Positions 1 through 7,513 of a stretch of DNA of 64,000 bases are shown piece after piece. Source of the stretch: Ideonella paludis. Its GTDB lineage: Bacteria; Pseudomonadota; Gammaproteobacteria; Burkholderiales; Burkholderiaceae_C. The stretch lies in NCBI RefSeq assembly GCF_018069865.1, contig NZ_JAGQDG010000001.1:124001-188000 (forward strand). The letters run 5' to 3'. The notes under the pieces are model-generated. The model saw nothing but the letters and a program-made list of their open reading frames with translations. It was not told the DNA's origin and did no database searches. How positions within the stretch are numbered: position 1 is the first letter of the stretch; each line of letters starts with the position of its first letter. Position numbers and translations under genes: made by a program.

Positions 1-2
1 GT

Positions 3-248
3 AATCAAGTGCTCGGCGAAGCCGACCGCCGAATCGCCAGCCTGGAAGCCGAAGTGGCCTTTCTCAAGCACATGGTGCTGAACCAGAACAATGAAGCCTT
101 GCCAGCACGTCTGGCCTTCATGAAGAGCGAAATCATTGCCATCTGTTCAGACATGTTGAGCCTGCAGAGAACGAATCTTGAGCGCGAATCTTCCGCCGCC
201 AAGACCGCGTCGCTGCCCGCCAGCAGCCTGCGCGCCACGAGTCGCTAA
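3..248 (+). CDS. C-terminal end of an unidentified protein (cut by window start)
   Basis: The frame is open from the first bases of the window and stops at 246-248, so only the last 81 or so residues are present. They are rich in Ala, Glu, Leu and Arg and read as an amphipathic helix or short coiled coil, then a Ser/Ala/Arg-rich tail. No catalytic motif is visible. The next gene starts 24 bases downstream on the same strand and is a glycosyltransferase, so this is probably the tail of another glycan-biosynthesis enzyme. That role is inferred from position only. Confidence 0.5.
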   Translation, partial: NQVLGEADRRIASLEAEVAFLKHMVLNQNNEALPARLAFMKSEIIAICSDMLSLQRTNLERESSAAKTASLPASSLRATSR

Positions 249-272: not shown

Positions 273-1565
273 GTGCCAGACATCGCCCCCCCTATTCGAG
301 AAGGCGTCGCTCGGCGGCGTCTGTATGTCTTCTCGCCGCTGCCGCCTCAGCGCAACGGGCTTGCCGACTACATCGTGGAGTACCTGCCCCTGTTGGCGCG
401 CGACTTTCAAGTCTGCGTGGTCTCAGAAAGTGGGCATGCGGCCGAGACGCGCCGAGCCATGGAGCAAATGCCTCACGTTGAAGTCGTGAGCGAAGCGCAT
501 TTCTTGGCACGGCAACCCGACCGCCAGGCTCAGGTGCTCTACAACGTGGGCAACAACGGGGACTGCGCCTATATGCTGGACCATGTCCACCAGTTCCCGG
601 GCGCCGTCATCATCCATGACGTCTCCCTGTTTTATCTGCACCAAGTGGCCGCTCAGCAATCGCGCAGCAATGCCATCATGGGCGCTTGGTTAGCCGCGGA
701 TGACTATGCCGTCCCCACTGACTTTCTCCATGGTGATGGCAGCCTGGCCAAAACTCCTGGGCTGGTCTATCAAGAGTGCCTGATGGTGAAGCGCCTATGC
801 CAGTCAGCCCAAGGGGTGATGGTGCACACCGCCTATGCTGAGCGGCGCTTGCGTGGCGGTGCCACCGGTGTCGCGCTCGGGCACAGCCAAGGCCGGCCCT
901 TGCTGCGTATGCCGCATTTTGTGCTGCCCCCTCCACCACCGACGGACGCTGCGCAAGTGGCTGAGGTCTTGGCGCGATACGCCATCCAGCCCGAAGACTT
1001 CCTCATCTTGGTCCCAGGTTTTCTGAGCGGCAACAAGATGCTCTATGAGATCTTGATGGCCTTTCGAGAAGCCTCGGCGCAAGGTCACCCGGACATGAAG
1101 CTGCTCTTTGCTGGCGAAGAGCGCGAGCAAGAGTACCGCCTCTCAGAGCGGATCAATGCGCTCTGGCCCACGGGCATCCGCCCTCAGGTCACGGGCTATC
1201 TCAGCGCCCAAGACCTGGACATCTTGCTGGGCCGCGCCGATCTCTCCTTGGTGCTGCGCTTTCCGACCTATGGCGAGTCATCCGGCATCTTGCCCCGCGC
1301 CGCCATGGGCGGTGGCGACGTCATCACCGTCAACATCGGCGCCTATCCGGAGTTCGAGTCGGCCGCAGTTCAAACCATTCCTGTGGGAGCGGGTGCAGTC
1401 GCCGCACTGACCGATGGCCTGTTGCGCAGCCATGCCCAGCGTGGGCGAGGTGAAGCACGTCAGTCACGCCAAAACAAGGAAGCCACCCAAGCCAAGGCCT
1501 TGAGCCCACAGGCGCTGTATCCGCGCCTACGCCAATGGCTCGATGATGTGTGGGCCATGCAATGA
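273..1565 (+). CDS. GT4-like glycosyltransferase
   Basis: A 430-aa protein with the two-domain look of GT-B glycosyltransferases, which transfer a sugar from a nucleotide donor. The N-terminal part has the PPQRNG segment (residues 24-29) typical of GT4 enzymes that open with a G/N-rich acceptor loop, and an IIHD strand end at about 113-116. The C-terminal Rossmann-like half starts near residue 243 (FLILVPGF). It has a GESSG segment at 334-338 where GT4 enzymes hold the donor-binding acidic residue. The start is a GTG at 273; I see no better ATG. Its stop overlaps the ATG of the next gene (ATGA), so the genes are translationally coupled. Acceptor and sugar cannot be told from sequence. A cytoplasmic role in building a surface glycan is inferred from the neighbouring glycosyltransferase and sulfotransferases. 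Confidence 0.8.
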   Translation: MPDIAPPIREGVARRRLYVFSPLPPQRNGLADYIVEYLPLLARDFQVCVVSESGHAAETRRAMEQMPHVEVVSEAHFLARQPDRQAQVLYNVGNNGDCAYMLDHVHQFPGAVIIHDVSLFYLHQVAAQQSRSNAIMGAWLAADDYAVPTDFLHGDGSLAKTPGLVYQECLMVKRLCQSAQGVMVHTAYAERRLRGGATGVALGHSQGRPLLRMPHFVLPPPPPTDAAQVAEVLARYAIQPEDFLILVPGFLSGNKMLYEILMAFREASAQGHPDMKLLFAGEEREQEYRLSERINALWPTGIRPQVTGYLSAQDLDILLGRADLSLVLRFPTYGESSGILPRAAMGGGDVITVNIGAYPEFESAAVQTIPVGAGAVAALTDGLLRSHAQRGRGEARQSRQNKEATQAKALSPQALYPRLRQWLDDVWAMQ

Positions 1566-2539
1566 GTCACGCCGAAGCTTGGATCGACCTGCTGGCCACC
1601 GCCGCCAGCCCCTTGCTGCCACCAGGACCGGTGGTGGTCATGCACAAGGCCCATCGCATCTTCCCTCTGATCGAGTCCTGCCGACAAGTCGCCTGGGTAC
1701 AAGCTCAGTTGGGCCCGTTCCAGGACTTCGTGGCACATGGCGAGGCCAATCCGAGCTTGCGCCTGCGCTTGGATGCCCAGCGCCAAGCCGCCGAGTCTGT
1801 CGAGTTACTCGGTCAAGCCGCCTTGCGCATGGTGTGCATCCCACATCAGCCGCGCGACGCTGCCGACTTGTTGCGTGTGGTCGAGGCCTGCGCTGACCGC
1901 CCAGGGGCTTGGCTGGTCTATGGGGAGCCGAGCGCCGGCGGCTGGAGTACCTTTGACGCTTGGTTGCGCCAACATGCTCTGCATGAAGCCGCCGACTCCA
2001 GCCGGCTTAAAGTCTTGATGAGTGACGCCCTTTTGGCAGTCTGGCCCACAGGGTCAAGACAGTTTGGTCCGGCCTTGGCCGAGCACCTCTGCCGGCGCGT
2101 GCCCGCATCGGTGCACCTCAAGCTCGACCTGGAAACCGCCTCCGGCCTGCCGCGCTTGCGGCTGCGCGTGGACCCGCTACAGGTCATTGCCTGTGCCGGG
2201 GAGACACTGGTGCACCATGTCGTGACCGAACGTCGTGCCCTGATCAATGCGCGGGGCCTGGGCAGCCTGATGGTGCCTTGGGATGGTTGCGCCTCCGCCC
2301 GCTTGCTGCTGCGCAATGTCCGCGCACGGGTCGATGACTGTGAGATCTGCATCGCGGACCACGAACTGAGCCCGTCTGACCTTCAGTACACCGAGAAGGG
2401 TGCCATCTTGTCCCTGCGCCTGCCCATGCTGGCCGCAGGCCGAGACGCCCTGCTCCACCTCTCGCTGCCGCGTGCCGCCGTGCCGGGCGACGGTTTCTGT
2501 GACATCGGCGCAGCCGAATTCATTGCGGATCTGGCATGA
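1562..2539 (+). CDS. Unknown protein between two glycosyltransferases
   Basis: A 325-aa protein that I do not recognise. The ATG at 1562 overlaps the preceding stop as ATGA, and its own stop overlaps the next ATG in the same way, so it is the middle gene of a coupled trio. An in-frame GTG at 1550 is possible but less likely. There is no signal peptide or membrane segment. The first half looks alpha/beta, with hydrophobic strands followed by charged helices. The second half, after about residue 170, is rich in alternating hydrophobic residues (for example LPRLRLRVDP) and reads as a beta domain. It has no evident DxD or nucleotide-binding motif. A role in making or binding the same glycan is inferred from coupling only. 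Confidence 0.6.
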   Translation: MSHAEAWIDLLATAASPLLPPGPVVVMHKAHRIFPLIESCRQVAWVQAQLGPFQDFVAHGEANPSLRLRLDAQRQAAESVELLGQAALRMVCIPHQPRDAADLLRVVEACADRPGAWLVYGEPSAGGWSTFDAWLRQHALHEAADSSRLKVLMSDALLAVWPTGSRQFGPALAEHLCRRVPASVHLKLDLETASGLPRLRLRVDPLQVIACAGETLVHHVVTERRALINARGLGSLMVPWDGCASARLLLRNVRARVDDCEICIADHELSPSDLQYTEKGAILSLRLPMLAAGRDALLHLSLPRAAVPGDGFCDIGAAEFIADLA

Positions 2540-3672
2540 GCGCTCGTGTTCTCTTTGTCACCTTCAATCGCCTCAGCCCGGCAGACCAAGGCAATGCGCG
2601 CCGCGCCATGCAAATGGCACGCCTCTACAAAGCCTTGGGCCTCGAAGTCGACCTGCTCTATCACTGCGACGAAGGCTTCGACCCTGCGCTCTCGCACACG
2701 CTCTCGCAAATCTTCGGCACAGTTCGCGTCGTTCCGCCCAAGGTGTCCAAGCGCGTGTACAAGCCCGAGCATCTCTGCCACATCGCCGACTGGTACGACC
2801 CACAGCTCGACACAGCCTGCCGCGAGATGCATGCGCTCAGAGCCTACCAAGTGGTGCACGTCAACTACATCTGGTACACCCCCCTGTTCAAGCAGTTTGG
2901 ACCGGAGGTCGCCAAAGTCTTGGACACCCATGACATCTTCGGGGACCGCGCTCAAAAGTACCGGCAAGCCGGTCTAGAGCCCCACTGGTTCAGCACCACC
3001 ATCGGCCAAGAAGACAGTGCGATTCAACGTGCCGACGTGGCGCTGGCCATCCAAAAGGAAGAGGCCGCAGAGTTGGCCACCCGCGGGCATCGCAATATCT
3101 TGTCCTTGCCCTACATCGAGCCCTGCGTGCGGCCCTTCCAGGCCACCACCACGCAACGCCCCTTAACCTTTGGTTATCTGGGCAGCGGCAATGACTGGAA
3201 CGTCCGCAGCATGCAGGCCTTCACGGCCAAGCTGCGCCAAGTCGGCAGCCAATTCGCACACCCCATGGTGGTGGCTGGAGGCATTTGCAAGCACATCCCC
3301 GACATGCCGGGGCTCATCAAGCTGGGCTTTGTCAAAGAGCTGCATACCTTCTATGACGCCATCGACATTGCCATCAATCCGATGGTGGGCGGCACGGGGC
3401 TGAAGATCAAGACCGTCGAGCCGCTGAGCTACGGCAAGCCGGTGCTGACCACCCCCTCCGGCGCACAAGGCCTGAGCCACCTCTGGCAGCTGCCCATCGT
3501 TGCTGATCCGCAGGCCATGGTGGACTACTTGCTGCAGAACTTCCAGGCCCCGAATCCGGCCTTGGTACAGACCTTGATCTCCCAAGCCCAGGCTTCTCAA
3601 CAAGCCTTTGAAGGCGAATACCTGGGCCAAGTGGAGCGTTTCAAGCGCTGGCTCAACAGCCGCCTGCACTGA
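2536..3672 (+). CDS. GT4-like glycosyltransferase
   Basis: A 378-aa GT-B fold glycosyltransferase. The N-terminal domain (residues 1-200) begins with a strand and the SPADQGNARR loop (14-23), as in enzymes that bind the acceptor near a G/N-rich turn, and carries DTHD at 130-133. The C-terminal donor-binding domain has the strand TFGYLG (211-216), then NPMVGGTGLKIK (281-292), E295 and KPVLTTPSG (301-309). That is the usual GT4 layout of glycine-rich loop, conserved Glu and PVL turn. The ATG overlaps the previous stop by 4 bases. It is the last gene of the plus-strand trio; about 100 bases beyond it the convergent sulfotransferase operon ends. Confidence 0.85.
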   Translation: MSARVLFVTFNRLSPADQGNARRAMQMARLYKALGLEVDLLYHCDEGFDPALSHTLSQIFGTVRVVPPKVSKRVYKPEHLCHIADWYDPQLDTACREMHALRAYQVVHVNYIWYTPLFKQFGPEVAKVLDTHDIFGDRAQKYRQAGLEPHWFSTTIGQEDSAIQRADVALAIQKEEAAELATRGHRNILSLPYIEPCVRPFQATTTQRPLTFGYLGSGNDWNVRSMQAFTAKLRQVGSQFAHPMVVAGGICKHIPDMPGLIKLGFVKELHTFYDAIDIAINPMVGGTGLKIKTVEPLSYGKPVLTTPSGAQGLSHLWQLPIVADPQAMVDYLLQNFQAPNPALVQTLISQAQASQQAFEGEYLGQVERFKRWLNSRLH

Positions 3673-3775
3673 AGAAGAAGCGGCCGCCCCCAACACACGT
3701 TGATTGAGCGGCGGCGCTGCGCGCTGCCCATTGCCCACTGGCCGCCATGGGCCAGCAGCAGCGCGAATGGGTTTT

Positions 3776-4687
3776 TCAGGCCACCCACTTGCCCCGCTTG
3801 GGGCCTGGGCCTTTTTTACCTTCGGCCTTGGGGCCACCGCCCTTTTTGGCGCCGTTGGGTTTGCGCTTGATGAGCGGGCCGGCTGCGGCGTCCTCTTCAG
3901 GCGTGAGCGCTGGCTTGATGTCGAGCACTTTCAAGTGCGCCTGATCGCCGCGGTCGCGCAGACGTCGCTCGTCGTAGCTCGCGTTCGTGCTCATGTCCAG
4001 GCGCTCGTAGCCAAAGCGCTCGAAGTCGCTTTGATAGCGTTCATAGATAAGCCGCTCGGCCTCTGGGTCTTGGCGCAACAAGTCCCACAGGGCGTTGGGG
4101 TTCTCTGTACTGCGATTACGTGCCTGAACCTCGCTGCTTTCCTCCGAATGGGCCGCCTTCTTACCGGCCTTCACGGTGTGGCTCAGGATGTAGGCCACAT
4201 CAGCGTCAATCGCTTCGACCGAACCGACAAAGTCCAGCGCGCGTTGCGAGGGCAGGTCTGTCCAGAAGGTTTGAGGGCGCAAGATGCGGTCCATGCCGTC
4301 GCCCGCGAAATACTCAGAGCGCAAAAACTCACCGAACTCGGTCAGCGAACTGACGGCCGCCAGGGTCTTGAGGGTTTTGCGGTCCTGCTGCCGATGCAGG
4401 TAGTTGAAGATACTGAAGGCCCGGGTGTAGGGGTTACGCACAAAGGCAAAGGTGAAGTACTTGCCGAAGCGCTGCTCACCCATGACGGCTTCAATTTCTT
4501 GCGCCGTGGAGTGCTTCGCCAGGCCGTAGCGGCGCTTGAAAAAGGGCTGCACCGCTTCACCCAGGGGTGTGCCGCCCACTTCCAGATCGCGATAGGTGCT
4601 GAACTTGGTGAAGAGGCGCGAGATGGACGTCCCTGCCGCCTTGGGCACGTGCACGAACACAAAGCTGCCCGTGTGATTGATGATCAT
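3776..4687 (-). CDS. Sulfotransferase family protein (last of four)
   Basis: A 303-aa protein of the Sulfotransfer_2 type. Enzymes of this family move sulfate from PAPS to carbohydrate hydroxyls. The PAPS 5-prime-phosphosulfate loop is seen as FVHVPKAAGTSI (residues 11-22) and the 3-prime-phosphate site as FVRNPYTRAFS (82-92). KHSTAQE at 58-64 is shared with the paralogue at 5394-6206. The last 35 or so residues are a low-complexity Lys/Gly/Pro tail. Its ATG overlaps the preceding gene's stop by 4 bases, and it is the promoter-distal gene of the four-gene operon. A glycan acceptor is inferred from the convergent glycosyltransferase genes. Confidence 0.85.
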   Translation of the reverse strand: MIINHTGSFVFVHVPKAAGTSISRLFTKFSTYRDLEVGGTPLGEAVQPFFKRRYGLAKHSTAQEIEAVMGEQRFGKYFTFAFVRNPYTRAFSIFNYLHRQQDRKTLKTLAAVSSLTEFGEFLRSEYFAGDGMDRILRPQTFWTDLPSQRALDFVGSVEAIDADVAYILSHTVKAGKKAAHSEESSEVQARNRSTENPNALWDLLRQDPEAERLIYERYQSDFERFGYERLDMSTNASYDERRLRDRGDQAHLKVLDIKPALTPEEDAAAGPLIKRKPNGAKKGGGPKAEGKKGPGPKRGKWVA

Positions 4688-5340
4688 GCCGTCTTCTCCG
4701 AATCAAAACGATAGCCAAATCGGCTCAAGGTCTTGGCATAAAGACGAGACACCAGGTCCACGTCCTCGCCCTTGTAAAAAGCGGCGTAATCCAAGGTCTT
4801 AGGGCCGGGTTTGTCGGGGTCAGGGTAGAGCGCCAAGGGTTCGTGGACGCCAAGCCGCTGCAAAACCTCGTCAAAGCCGGCTTGCTGGGCCTCAAAGCGG
4901 ATCACCACATCCACTTGATCCGCATAGTTGAGCTGGGCCCGAGACTCGCGCTTCTCTTTGATCAGCGCCTCATGGGTCTGCCTCAGCCAAGCGGAAAAAC
5001 TGAGGCCTGCAGCCTTACCGTCGCTTGCCTCATCGGGTGTTTCGCCGGGGCGGCTTCCCCCTTGCTTGAGGTAGCGCGCGACCAGCAGGTCAAAGGGATT
5101 ACGGACCCCCGTGAACTTCAGCAGCGCCTTGAACTCGCTCTCGGAGAGCAGCTCTGCGGCGAGCACCATTTTGGGCGTCGTGTTTTGCCGGCGTGCCAAC
5201 ACTTTGCCCCGACGCACCACGTCTTCGGGCGGCAACAGCTCGCCATGCAAATGCTCCATGAGCGTCCGCGTGATGGCTTGCGAGCCCGTCAGGGGATTCA
5301 CGAAAAACAAATACTGCAGACGCTCGCAGACAACCGCCAT
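4684..5340 (-). CDS. Sulfotransferase-like protein with altered PAPS loop
   Basis: A 218-aa protein similar in layout to its neighbours. A strand leads to FVNPLTGSQAI (residues 13-23), in the place of the PAPS loop. GVRNPFDLLVARY (78-90) matches the 3-prime-phosphate site. The loop lysine found in the neighbours (PK, HK) is replaced by Leu (PL), so catalysis may be weakened or lost. An open frame extends upstream to 5562, but that stretch overlaps the preceding gene and is low complexity. I chose the ATG at 5340 because it begins just before the first conserved strand. The stop overlaps the next ATG by 4 bases. Confidence 0.7.
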   Translation of the reverse strand: MAVVCERLQYLFFVNPLTGSQAITRTLMEHLHGELLPPEDVVRRGKVLARRQNTTPKMVLAAELLSESEFKALLKFTGVRNPFDLLVARYLKQGGSRPGETPDEASDGKAAGLSFSAWLRQTHEALIKEKRESRAQLNYADQVDVVIRFEAQQAGFDEVLQRLGVHEPLALYPDPDKPGPKTLDYAAFYKGEDVDLVSRLYAKTLSRFGYRFDSEKTA

Positions 5341-5393
5341 CGCAACCTCATGAAAAAACCAGACCGCCTGCGCCGCGCACAGGCTGAGACGAA

Positions 5394-6206
5394 TCAAGCC
5401 GCCGCAGCGCCTGAGCTTTGAATCTTGCCCGCCGCCGACGCATTGGCCTTGCCACCTTGCGGCTTGCCGCCTGCCTTGGGGCCGGCCTGCACCACTTGAG
5501 GCGGCACGGTGTAGCCAAAGATCTTGAAGTCGCGCAGGTAATGCTTGCGGATCATCAGCCAAGCCTCAGGACTGAGCTCGTCCGCCACGAGCTCCGGGCT
5601 CTTGTTCTGCAGGCCCAAAGGTGCGGTGAACTTCAAGCGCTTTTGAACGCGTGCCCAGTCGTCGCCAATTTTTTCAACCTTGCCAATCATGTCGACCATG
5701 ACCACGCCTTCGGCGTCACAGAGGCTCTGCCATTGCGGCTTGGCACCGGCGTCTTGCCAGGTGCGGGGATTGCGCACGAAAGCGTCAAAGCTCTGGGCGC
5801 TGACCGCGGCTTGAACCGCCTTGAACTTATAAGGATGGCGTGCAGGGAACTCGCCCTTAGCGGCCAGCGCAGCCTGCTCCTCGGTTGTCAGCGGGTTGCG
5901 CTCGGCCAAGCCCTTGGCGTAGGCATACAAAGAGCGCAGGCGATCCACCGGCTGGCGCACAAACCCGAAAGTGAAGAAATTCTTCCACCGGGCCTCTCCC
6001 AACAAGTCCTTGGCTTCTTGCGCCGTGGAGTGCTTGCGCAGCTTGAGCACGTCGGCAAAAAAGGTCTTTTGCTTTTCCCCGTCTTCGGTGGAGCCAATCA
6101 CCAGATCATTGACGCCCAACTGAGTGGCCAGCGCCGTCTCAATGCTGGTGCCCGCGCATTTATGGACATGCACAAAGACAAATCGGAGGTTGGGAGAGAT
6201 GATCAT
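5394..6206 (-). CDS. Sulfotransferase family protein
   Basis: A 270-aa Sulfotransfer_2-type protein. The PAPS loop is FVHVHKCAGTSI (residues 11-22) and the 3-prime-phosphate site FVRQPVDRLRS (82-92). KHSTAQE occupies residues 58-64, as in the protein at 3776-4687, so the two are probably ancient tandem paralogues. The C-terminal 30 residues are an Ala/Gly/Lys low-complexity tail. The gene is second in the operon, 46 bases after the gene at 6253 and 53 bases before the next. It is probably cytosolic, using PAPS to sulfate a glycan precursor; the substrate is unknown. Confidence 0.8.
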   Translation of the reverse strand: MIISPNLRFVFVHVHKCAGTSIETALATQLGVNDLVIGSTEDGEKQKTFFADVLKLRKHSTAQEAKDLLGEARWKNFFTFGFVRQPVDRLRSLYAYAKGLAERNPLTTEEQAALAAKGEFPARHPYKFKAVQAAVSAQSFDAFVRNPRTWQDAGAKPQWQSLCDAEGVVMVDMIGKVEKIGDDWARVQKRLKFTAPLGLQNKSPELVADELSPEAWLMIRKHYLRDFKIFGYTVPPQVVQAGPKAGGKPQGGKANASAAGKIQSSGAAAA

Positions 6207-6252
6207 GGTCGAACGCTCGGGAAAAAGTGGGATGGGCTGGCGCTAGAAGTTA

Positions 6253-7134
6253 TCAGTCTGACCCAGCCAGCAAGCCAGGTCGATCCCACACAATGCGCAT
6301 CGCCTGAGTTTTTTCGAGGATCATGCGCTCGGTGTCAGCATCGACATAGGTATCGATGTCGGGCTCGCGCCGGGTGATGGGCTTGGAGAGCATTTCGTCA
6401 ACCTGGCGGCCCGGCACCTCTTTGGGCTTCAAAACCTCGGCCACAAAGGCCAAGCCCGCAAAGTCGCAGATGGCGCGCAAGGCCAGCTCGGGCGTGCTCG
6501 TCATCCAGTCGTAGGGGGCGACAAATACCTGCTGAGGCCAGCGCTGGCGCGCATCCAGAATGCTCTCGGTGATCTGCTCAAAGTGGCCGATCAGTTGCTC
6601 GGCGGTGCGGTCCAACCAGCCCCACTCATCCACACCCTTGCCCAAGGCCTTCTCGGCGGCCAAGCGCTTGCGGTAACTGGCCACGATGCTGACCGGGTCA
6701 CGGGTACACACCACGACGCGGGCCAGCGGAAACAGCTCCAGCATGCGGCCTAACTTGCGCACATGGGCCGGTGTCTTCTCAAGGGGCTGGCGACCGGGGT
6801 AAACATAGTGGGCGGCGAAGTAGAAGAATGCCCGGATCACATCAGCCTCAGACAGCTCGCCCTTCTCGCCACCAAGGCTGGCCACAAAACTGCGAAAGCG
6901 GCTGCATTGCGCCTCACCTTGCAGATAGGCCTGGGTCATTTGCGGCGCGGGGTCTTGCAAGGCCGAGCGTGGCTTCAAAAAGATGAAGGTCTCGTAGACG
7001 TCCTTGACGGCAAACAGTTCGGGATGCCGACTCAGAGAGACTTGCAGAATCGAAGTTCCTGAGCGCTCGAGCCCACAAATGAAAACCGGACGTGCAGTCG
7101 TCGACCAGCGGCGAATATCGTGCAACGTCGTCAT
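6253..7134 (-). CDS. Sulfotransferase family protein (first of four)
   Basis: A 293-aa protein of the Sulfotransfer_1/3 type, different from the three downstream. The PAPS loop is GLERSGTSIL (residues 21-30), followed by the conserved EKTP motif (120-123) and the 3-prime-phosphate motif RDPVSIVAS (146-154). The open frame reaches 7164, but the ATG at 7134 has a good AGGAGA ribosome-binding site a few bases upstream, so I start there. It is the promoter-proximal gene of the operon. The acceptor cannot be named. Confidence 0.85.
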   Translation of the reverse strand: MTTLHDIRRWSTTARPVFICGLERSGTSILQVSLSRHPELFAVKDVYETFIFLKPRSALQDPAPQMTQAYLQGEAQCSRFRSFVASLGGEKGELSEADVIRAFFYFAAHYVYPGRQPLEKTPAHVRKLGRMLELFPLARVVVCTRDPVSIVASYRKRLAAEKALGKGVDEWGWLDRTAEQLIGHFEQITESILDARQRWPQQVFVAPYDWMTSTPELALRAICDFAGLAFVAEVLKPKEVPGRQVDEMLSKPITRREPDIDTYVDADTERMILEKTQAMRIVWDRPGLLAGSD

Positions 7135-7513
7135 GGGGTCTCCTGAAAAAGCGAGTGAGTGCAAGCCCTGCGCCCTAAAGCTCCGCGGCGCCAGCAGGCT
7201 GGCGTGGGCAGCGCGACGCGCTCGCCTCGGGGAGGTCTAGCGGTGTCGGGCCATCGCATGCGCATGCCAAGGGCTTCAGCAAGTCAGCCCAAGGCCACCC
7301 AAGGCGACCAGGACCTCACGCTCAACGGGCAGCCCATCATGCTGGGGCAAGCGCGCCAGCCGTCGCGCGGCGGGCAGTGTCTTCTTCTTCAGCATGGAGC
7401 GGGGCGGTCAAGCGGGCGAGCGAAAGGGCCAGTATAAGTGGCGTCCGCGTTCGAGTGGCACCCGCAAGCCCCCTAAGACAGAGGCTGGGCCAAAGCCCGC
7501 AGTGCCAACAGCC
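7135..7513 (-). other. Intergenic region before the sulfotransferase operon
   Basis: About 380 bases between the end of the exonuclease gene and the start of the first sulfotransferase. Short open frames here have no recognisable protein character. The region must hold the promoter of the sulfotransferase operon, but I see no convincing -35/-10 pair, repeat or terminator apart from the AGGAGA ribosome-binding site next to 7134. Confidence 0.4.

Follow-up and report, generated by a model that had tools for sequence, protein, structure and literature searches.

A gene trio with two glycosyltransferases and a neighbouring sulfotransferase operon as the probable distal part of a kps-type capsule locus with a sulfated product

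What product would a betaproteobacterium make with four sulfotransferase-like (ST) genes in a row, facing a group of glycosyltransferase genes? Sulfation of a polymer by several different enzymes is a chemistry more familiar in animal tissues, seaweeds and marine microbes. In the window, by which we mean the whole stretch of 64,000 nucleotides analysed, three overlapping plus-strand genes (two GT4-like genes around U_w2) meet a minus-strand ST run, an arrangement that an earlier note had described and with which the open reading frames and Pfam assignments agree (Table 1). The note had proposed a sulfated surface glycan, and the exporter, the PAPS cassette and the synteny described below support this proposal, the sulfate itself being what they would lead one to expect. 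We put at roughly 80% the probability that the trio and the ST operon form the far end of a capsule locus that depends on an ABC transporter (kps, group 2/3 type) and makes a sulfated product; the capsule is probably sulfated at several positions. The genes, their families and motifs, their order and their co-occurrence across genomes are direct observations.

Table 1. Features at the left end of the window, with window coordinates
Feature	Position	Strand	Remarks
U307, 3′ end of a 307-aa protein	1..248	+	No Pfam match; whole gene C11:123325-124248
GT_w1, GT4-like glycosyltransferase	273..1565	+	Glycos_transf_1, 28.9 bits
U_w2	1562..2539	+	ORF opens at 1550; no Pfam family reaches its cut-off
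GT_w3, GT4-like glycosyltransferase	2536..3672	+	Glyco_trans_1_4, 35.9 bits; synteny
ST_w4, sulfotransferase (Sulfotransfer_2)	3776..4687	-	70.3 bits; PSB K16, PB R84 with S92
ST_w5, diverged sulfotransferase-fold protein	4684..5340	-	L in place of the PSB lysine, A in place of the PB serine; PB arginine R80 retained
ST_w6, sulfotransferase (Sulfotransfer_2)	5394..6206	-	66.9 bits; PSB K16, PB R84
ST_w7, sulfotransferase (Sulfotransfer_3)	6253..7134	-	96.0 bits (ORF 6253-7164); PSB R24, PB R145

Neighbouring genes of the trio overlap by a few bases, and the minus-strand genes, of which ST_w7 is the first, follow one another with gaps of 46 and 53 bp and then a 4-bp overlap, a spacing like that of an operon. 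Promoter and terminator scans gave results near chance level. U248, U307 and the trio also lie inside the kps locus of 7 further genomes in the genus, with U307 directly before the trio and GT_w1 at the same place. Chance clustering of unrelated frames is ruled out by the Pfam scores, of which we counted only those over cut-off for the window genes, together with the operon spacing and the synteny in relatives.

The earlier note had counted four PAPS-type STs and had named structure predictions without a PAPS pocket in most of them as grounds against its reading. Judged by motif, three of the four (ST_w4, ST_w6 and ST_w7) are complete; a structure was predicted for ST_w5 alone. The Sulfotransfer_3 assignment of ST_w7 is based on a PF13469 score over cut-off and on an RSGT-type PSB, which we take to be the motif of that family. 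Both ST_w4 and ST_w6 score over the PF03567 cut-off and carry the PSB lysine and the PB motif PxxRxxS, the combination by which the available text of PMC11625862 defines the ST motifs. Across the locus, the PSB and PB motifs are complete in six of the seven ST-like genes.

The fourth protein of the set, ST_w5, is homologous but diverged and lacks the catalytic lysine. It falls outside Sulfotransfer_2, as its ORF (4684-5562) has no Pfam match and neither the 5′-PSB lysine nor the PB serine is present. The same review text cautions that bacterial STs may be without consensus PSB motifs (PMC11625862). Profile comparison by hhalign finds the ST_w5 family homologous to its two Sulfotransfer_2 neighbours (probability 96.1%, E 3.3e-9, against 0.06% for an unrelated control); the corresponding comparison of ST_C299 with the w4/w6 profile reached a probability of only 33.8%, over the motif region. 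With the ST_w5 model, all 50 Foldseek matches listed of 264 are sulfotransferases or fold relatives, without any of these 50 reaching significance (best E 0.023; TM 0.16–0.43 by query). Two relatives, G160 and G162, have two copies each of ST_w5-type genes, and all four reach the PF03567 cut-off. From its sequence ST_w5 is possibly inactive; it has either an unusual PSB loop or a role as a pseudo-enzyme partner.

The trio and the ST operon form the end of a much larger locus. To the left, where the earlier note had suggested a search for polymer export genes, an exporter of the ABC type (KpsM/KpsT/KpsE/KpsD-like, in the order kpsM-T-E-D) lies 16–20 kb from the window at C11:103835-108110, in the orientation of the trio. 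Beyond it come genes for large glycosyltransferases and a further three ST-like genes (ST_A, ST_B and ST_C). The four-gene operon is present as originally described but belongs to a capsule locus in which seven ST-like genes, five of them over a Pfam cut-off, extend from directly after kpsMTED through the operon in the window. The assignment of KpsM and KpsT rests on an ABC-2 permease match (PF01061, 38.0 bits) and an ABC ATPase match (PF00005, 58.6 bits), and the KpsD/Wza-type export protein has a Poly_export domain over cut-off, with SLBB. We counted as the co-polymerase a KpsE-like protein that matches TIGR01010 with E 1.6e-88 and 297 bits, below the cut-off of 437.5; matches to this model fall below its curated cut-off in all 16 genomes of the genus. 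The Kdo transferases KpsC and KpsS (PF05159, 311 and 261 bits; KpsS also matches NF050054, below the cut-off of that model) are encoded away from kpsMTED, at C11:241.1-244.6 kb. The genes of the locus that were scanned with Pfam include no Wzx or Wzy.

A search for PAPS synthesis, likewise suggested in the note, led to a single cassette composed of a DASS-type permease, cysNC, cysD, cysQ, kpsC and kpsS. It shares the contig with kpsE but lies 131 kb away, a distance that counts against the capsule reading. The cassette joins cysNC, cysD and cysQ with kpsC and kpsS and therefore places PAPS supply beside capsule priming. Its permease is DASS/Na_sulph_symp-like, a putative sulfate transporter by sequence. 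Of the 15 APS-kinase loci in the genus, 13 have kpsC next to cysQ, and the PAPS genes lie about 39 kb from kpsE in G153 and G154. Since a PF01507 search finds CysD as a single copy, the cassette is probably shared and also serves cysteine synthesis. The only CysH found is encoded elsewhere, flanked by genes that look by eye like those for sulfite reductase and siroheme synthesis; it has CC...CxxC cysteines, which we take to mark the APS reductase type. Together with the absence of an APS kinase match with E below 1e-40 from 118 of 150 family genomes, this CysH rules out plain sulfate assimilation as the whole answer for the PAPS genes.

We infer the sulfation of the polymer, the order of steps, the positions and residues sulfated and the activity of each ST from this gene content. 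Glycosyltransferases of the locus, including GT_w1 and GT_w3, would build the chain in the cytoplasm, probably starting from a Kdo-primed lipid made by KpsC and KpsS. Several STs, each specific for a position or a residue (w4, w6 and w7, and A, B and C upstream), would act on the chain with PAPS formed by CysD and CysNC, and CysQ would clear the resulting PAP. The chain, sulfated in the cytoplasm, would then be exported by KpsMTED.

A precedent is the capsular polysaccharide locus of Cobetia marina KMM 1449, whose capsule has been demonstrated to be sulfated and which, in the available text of PMC11766843, likewise combines kpsETMD, kpsSC, bifunctional cysN/C, cysD, cysQ, a sulfate permease, glycosyltransferases and STs. 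The linkage of cysNC, cysD, cysQ and permease to kpsC and kpsS is the same here. In C. marina, however, kpsETMD and kpsSC flank the PAPS genes, whereas here the latter share a contig with the kpsMTED operon without standing beside it; ST genes there are tied to rhamnose sulfation at position 2, whereas our locus has seven ST-like genes and the trio; and C. marina is a marine gammaproteobacterium (PMC11766843). As described in the accessible part of PMC11641403, Vibrio sp. KMM 8419, also with a capsule demonstrated to be sulfated, resembles our locus in kpsDME/kpsT ABC export, STs in the cluster and second copies of cysC/N/D, but it has three STs, of which one belongs to the O-antigen part, and lacks kpsC. 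The synechan xss cluster of Synechocystis 6803 also holds STs within a polysaccharide cluster for a polymer demonstrated to be sulfated, but it is of the Wzx/Wzy type with two STs, according to the portion of PMC8205485 available.

Among 150 family genomes, the one studied here counted, Sulfotransfer_2 occurs in 5 and Sulfotransfer_3 in 27; such genes, a run of four of which the earlier note had called rare, are thus uncommon in the family but usual in the genus, in which 12 and 15 of 16 genomes have them. APS kinase is present in 26 of 28 family genomes with STs versus 6 of 122 without (Fisher 3e-21, shared ancestry ignored). When gene order is compared with that of relatives, as the note had advised, the gene content around the exporter is conserved. 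From ST_B to ST_w7 the gene order is retained in the nearest relative, where the window genes show 73–92% identity. The nearest named relative found is Ideonella sp. MAG2 (Burkholderiales).

We consider it rather unlikely that the minus-strand STs act on some other product (LPS O-antigen, a lipid, a secreted small molecule or a protein) and merely adjoin the capsule genes. They do run on the strand opposite to the trio here, but homologs of all four lie in the kps locus of G159, G160 and G162, at most about 12 kb from the trio, and in G160 and G162 the homologs of w4, w5 and w7 are co-directional with it, that of w6 being opposite. An ACP, a ketoacyl synthase and an alpha/beta hydrolase, also encoded in the capsule locus, could hint at an acylated or lipid product. 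Of the 117 ST matches in the genus, 70 are not within 40 kb of kpsE; the 47 that are, however, stand against about 2.5 expected, at least one such match occurs in 13 of 15 kpsE genomes, and the PAPS cassette is attached to kpsC. Two genomes are exceptions to the capsule reading. G076 has kps genes and the PAPS cassette, and neither of its two ST matches is within 40 kb of kpsE. G158, a 90%-complete genome in 630 contigs, has the cassette and three Sulfotransfer_3 matches; because it shows no PF05159 match and a weak KpsE match, its STs act elsewhere or the incomplete genome is missing the genes.

Still less probable is a capsule locus that has decayed or been recently exchanged, with several STs as non-functional remnants. 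The missing lysine of ST_w5 would fit such a history, as would the segment from GT_1425 to GT90, with 45–48% G+C versus 63% in the window, the failure to find ST_A and GT90 in G159, and an ST content that varies among species. Yet the reading frames are open, w4–w7 retain 80–92% identity in the nearest relative, most STs of the locus are complete in their motifs, and the ST_w5-type genes are duplicated in G160 and G162.

Beyond the capsule locus with a sulfated product that we favour, a broader reading is possible, though we hold it tentatively: a genus with exchangeable capsule loci of up to at least ten STs might carry out species-specific, multi-site capsule sulfation with a number of enzymes comparable to that of animal glycosaminoglycan sulfation, the lysine-less ST_w5 family being a partner or a non-canonical sulfotransferase. 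One species of the genus does have at least ten STs in one locus. In 2021 the synechan authors knew of no ST genes in other bacterial extracellular polysaccharide clusters and described sulfated polysaccharides as so far unreported for other bacteria, by the available text of PMC8205485, and a 2026 paper, in the part available, still calls the producers of sulfated bacterial polysaccharides restricted. In the literature examined, represented by partial texts, these polymers come from cyanobacteria and marine bacteria, and searches of the open-licence literature yielded no description of a sulfated capsule from this bacterial group. If a genus of betaproteobacteria has its PAPS supply fixed next to capsule priming, and one of its species at least ten STs within a single locus, it would be a source of carbohydrate sulfotransferases that are new and could be applied to the synthesis of heparin- and chondroitin-like products, and sulfation patterning would become testable in a bacterium through single-ST deletions.

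For U_w2, the middle gene of the trio, the searches yielded no functional assignment. Alignments of U_w2 and of the STs, searched against PDB sequences, gave nothing relevant, with chance-level matches only (up to E 1), and no obvious SAM motif was found in U_w2 by eye. Its predicted structure (pLDDT 90.1) suggests a methyltransferase-like Rossmann domain joined to a beta-sandwich, and in Foldseek the model partially matches methyltransferase folds (1eiz, E 2.9e-4, TM 0.31 by query), alongside unrelated folds.

The genes that the earlier note had described, a plus-strand trio meeting a minus-strand run of sulfotransferase (ST) genes, were confirmed by ORF positions and Pfam matches. The trio forms the end of a long, mostly plus-strand gene run that begins left of the window, which spans C11:124001-188000 in this genome of 4.80 Mb and 22 contigs. 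The locus holds seven ST-like genes, counting the four of the window; five pass the Pfam cut-off, and six carry complete PAPS-binding motifs (PSB and PB); at the PSB position four of the six have K, and the two Sulfotransfer_3 proteins have R. The alpha/beta hydrolase, acyl carrier protein and ketoacyl synthase encoded between two of the STs possibly serve to modify the glycan, or its lipid, with acyl groups. Homologs of all three are found in G159, of the hydrolase in G160 and of the ketoacyl synthase in G163. The model of U_w2, the middle protein of the trio (pLDDT 90), combines a Rossmann methyltransferase-like domain with a beta-sandwich and has no obvious SAM motif.

Genes of the capsule locus and its PAPS supply (C11, contig; L008, extracted region; window, window coordinates)
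Feature	Coordinates	Strand	Remarks
ABC-2 permease	C11:103835-104623		
ABC ATPase	C11:104634-105308		
KpsE-like	C11:105305-106399		
Poly_export/SLBB protein	C11:106371-108110		
GT_889	C11:108150-110819		GT2+GT4 protein, 889 aa
GT_1425	C11:110823-115100		1,425 aa; Galactosyl_T/Fringe and GT2 domains
ST_A	C11:115104-116810		Sulfotransfer_2, 568 aa
GT90-like gene	C11:116812-118014	-	
ST_B	C11:118098-118907		Sulfotransfer_3
Alpha/beta hydrolase, acyl carrier protein, ketoacyl synthase (in this order)	L008:14968-17471		between ST_B and ST_C
ST_C	C11:121505-122404		299 aa; no Pfam match; K/R/S motifs complete
U248, U307			no assigned function; after ST_C
GT_w1	window:273-1565	+	overlaps U_w2
U_w2	window:1562-2539	+	overlaps GT_w1 and GT_w3
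GT_w3	window:2536-3672	+	overlaps U_w2
ST_w7, ST_w6, ST_w5, ST_w4 (in this order)	window:7134 down to 3776	-	gaps of 46 bp and 53 bp, then a 4-bp overlap
CysNC fusion	C11:236.3-238.2 kb		NF004035, 1,077 bits; the genome's one APS kinase

The claim that the window run encodes four PAPS-type enzymes holds by motif for three of them, the fourth, ST_w5, lacking the PSB lysine. ST_w5 has no Pfam match, and its family is homologous to ST_w4/ST_w6 by hhalign (96.1%, E 3.3e-9; 0.06% for U_w2 as a control). Among the best 50 of 264 Foldseek matches to its AlphaFold2 model (pLDDT 80.7), we found sulfotransferases and fold relatives only, none of them significant (best E 0.023). The PSB lysine, which a review of these motifs describes as highly conserved and catalytic (PMC11625862), is replaced by L or Q in all six aligned family members. 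The PB motif, PxxRxxS in the same review, keeps its serine in all four copies from G160 and G162 and has A instead in our genome and in G159. By this motif comparison, ST_w5 may be inactive or unusual, the other three being canonical; the same review cautions that consensus motifs may not be visible in bacterial polysaccharide STs.

The CysNC gene is adjoined by genes for CysD and a putative sulfate permease of DASS/Na-sulfate-symporter type, from which those for CysQ, a KpsC-like protein (PF05159, 311 bits) and KpsS (PF05159, 261 bits) diverge. PF01507 matches in the genome comprise one CysD and one CysH, the latter on another contig with a cysteine pair at 140-141 and further cysteines at 222 and 225, a pattern that we take to be of the APS-reductase type, so that cysteine would be made without PAPS. 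Given only one CysD in this search, outside which a Sat-type ATP sulfurylase would fall, the cassette probably serves both cysteine synthesis and sulfation. We propose that the glycosyltransferases would assemble the chain in the cytoplasm, probably on a Kdo primer from KpsC/KpsS, that several STs would sulfate it there with PAPS made by CysD/CysNC, and that KpsMTED would export the sulfated chain while CysQ removes PAP. We infer these reactions from the named families, the genes and their linkage being observed. The number of distinct STs suggests that more than one position is sulfated.

Across 150 family genomes, evenly drawn from a larger group and including ours and one more of its genus, Sulfotransfer_2 occurs in five, Sulfotransfer_3 in 27 and either in 28. 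APS kinase was called in 32 at E < 1e-40 (112 have a match at E 0.001), weaker matches being set aside as other P-loop proteins. It is present in 26 of the 28 ST genomes, the exceptions being G104 (76% complete) and G134, vs six of the 122 without an ST (Fisher P 3e-21, shared ancestry ignored). In G038, G052 and G010, a distance of 4-12 kb separates the Sulfotransfer_2 gene from APS kinase; G059 has them on separate contigs.

Within the genus (16 genomes), Sulfotransfer_3 is found in 15, Sulfotransfer_2 in 12, PF05159 in 14, APS kinase in all except G152 (1,220 contigs) and a strong KpsE match, always under the curated cut-off, in 15. We counted 117 ST matches at E 0.001 in genomes with strong kpsE, including a few under the Pfam cut-off and excluding two second-fragment rows and three G158 matches. 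Of these, 47 fall within 40 kb of kpsE vs about 2.5 expected, matches in one locus not being independent, and 13 of the 15 genomes with strong kpsE have at least one. In 13 of 15 APS-kinase loci kpsC adjoins cysQ; in G161 the contig ends, and G158 has no kpsC. Against a link to capsule, however, the other 70 ST matches lie outside the 40 kb around kpsE, none of the STs falls in that range in G076, which carries both kps and the cassette, and G161 (80% complete) yields zero ST matches although kpsE and the cassette are present. G158 also speaks against it, with STs and the cassette but neither a PF05159 match nor strong KpsE; its cassette region (L133, G158:C479:7001-27000) lacks kpsC/kpsS, and the genome has three Sulfotransfer_3 matches, making it a natural exception to the capsule link.

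We compared gene order in 14 of 18 strong kpsE regions from other genomes (13 genomes), eight of them covered over about 20 kb only, where absences are not firm. The order U248-U307-GT_w1-U_w2-GT_w3 is kept in seven genomes (G159, G160, G162, G153, G154, G163 and G157); G152 retains only GT_w3 of the trio, and GT_889 follows kpsD in some genomes and precedes kpsM in others. All four window STs have homologs in G159, G160 and G162. In both G160 and G162, the ST_w4, ST_w5 and ST_w7 homologs share the direction of the trio and the ST_w6 homolog is opposite to it. ST_w6 is kept in G153 and G154, and ST_w7 in G163. The single locus of G162 has at least ten STs: eight of ten proteins tested against Pfam are STs over the cut-off, and two ST_w5-like genes exceed that of PF03567. 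A scan of named genomes found ten loci, one of them close, in Ideonella sp. MAG2 (PTEU01000002.1), with ST_B to ST_w7 in the same order and window proteins 73-92% identical.

GT_1425, ST_A and the GT90-like gene (C11:110823-118014, L008:6823-14014) have a G+C content of 45-48% vs 63% in the window and likely form an acquired capsule-type segment. In G159, ST_B directly follows GT_1425, with no ST_A or GT90 between. This low G+C, together with ST sets that differ, suggests that capsule types are exchanged.

Four reports describe comparable systems. The closest is Cobetia marina KMM 1449, in which a single region holds kpsETMD, kpsSC, cysN/C, cysD, cysQ and a permease and the capsule was shown to be sulfated (PMC11766843). 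Vibrio sp. KMM 8419 has three STs with kps export (PMC11641403), synechan relies on Wzx/Wzy export and two STs (PMC8205485), and Pontiella sulfatireligans has three putative GAG-type STs, one within a cluster (PMC7356697). The present locus is of the same kind, with a predicted sulfated product, but differs in host group, ST number, the trio with its central protein of no assigned function, and the diverged ST_w5. We found no report of a sulfated capsule for this group in the open-licence literature, a search that may miss subscription papers.

STs also occur elsewhere. Another contig of our genome (C16, L021:4836-7597) encodes a Sulfotransfer_2 protein and, slightly beyond, a 330-aa protein without a Pfam match whose start, LNKTGTSSLQDF, is sulfotransferase-like by eye. 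In another genus, G052:C4:80001-115000 (L031/L032) has several ST genes in what appears by eye to be an exosortase-type EPS locus, about 12 kb from an APS kinase that CysD adjoins. Lastly, G010:C1:403001-423000 (L033) brings together rmlC, a KpsT/Wzt-like ATPase, a Sulfotransfer_2 match and a cysNC-cysD / cysQ cassette, PAPS genes that by their position are tied to a different putative glycan export locus.
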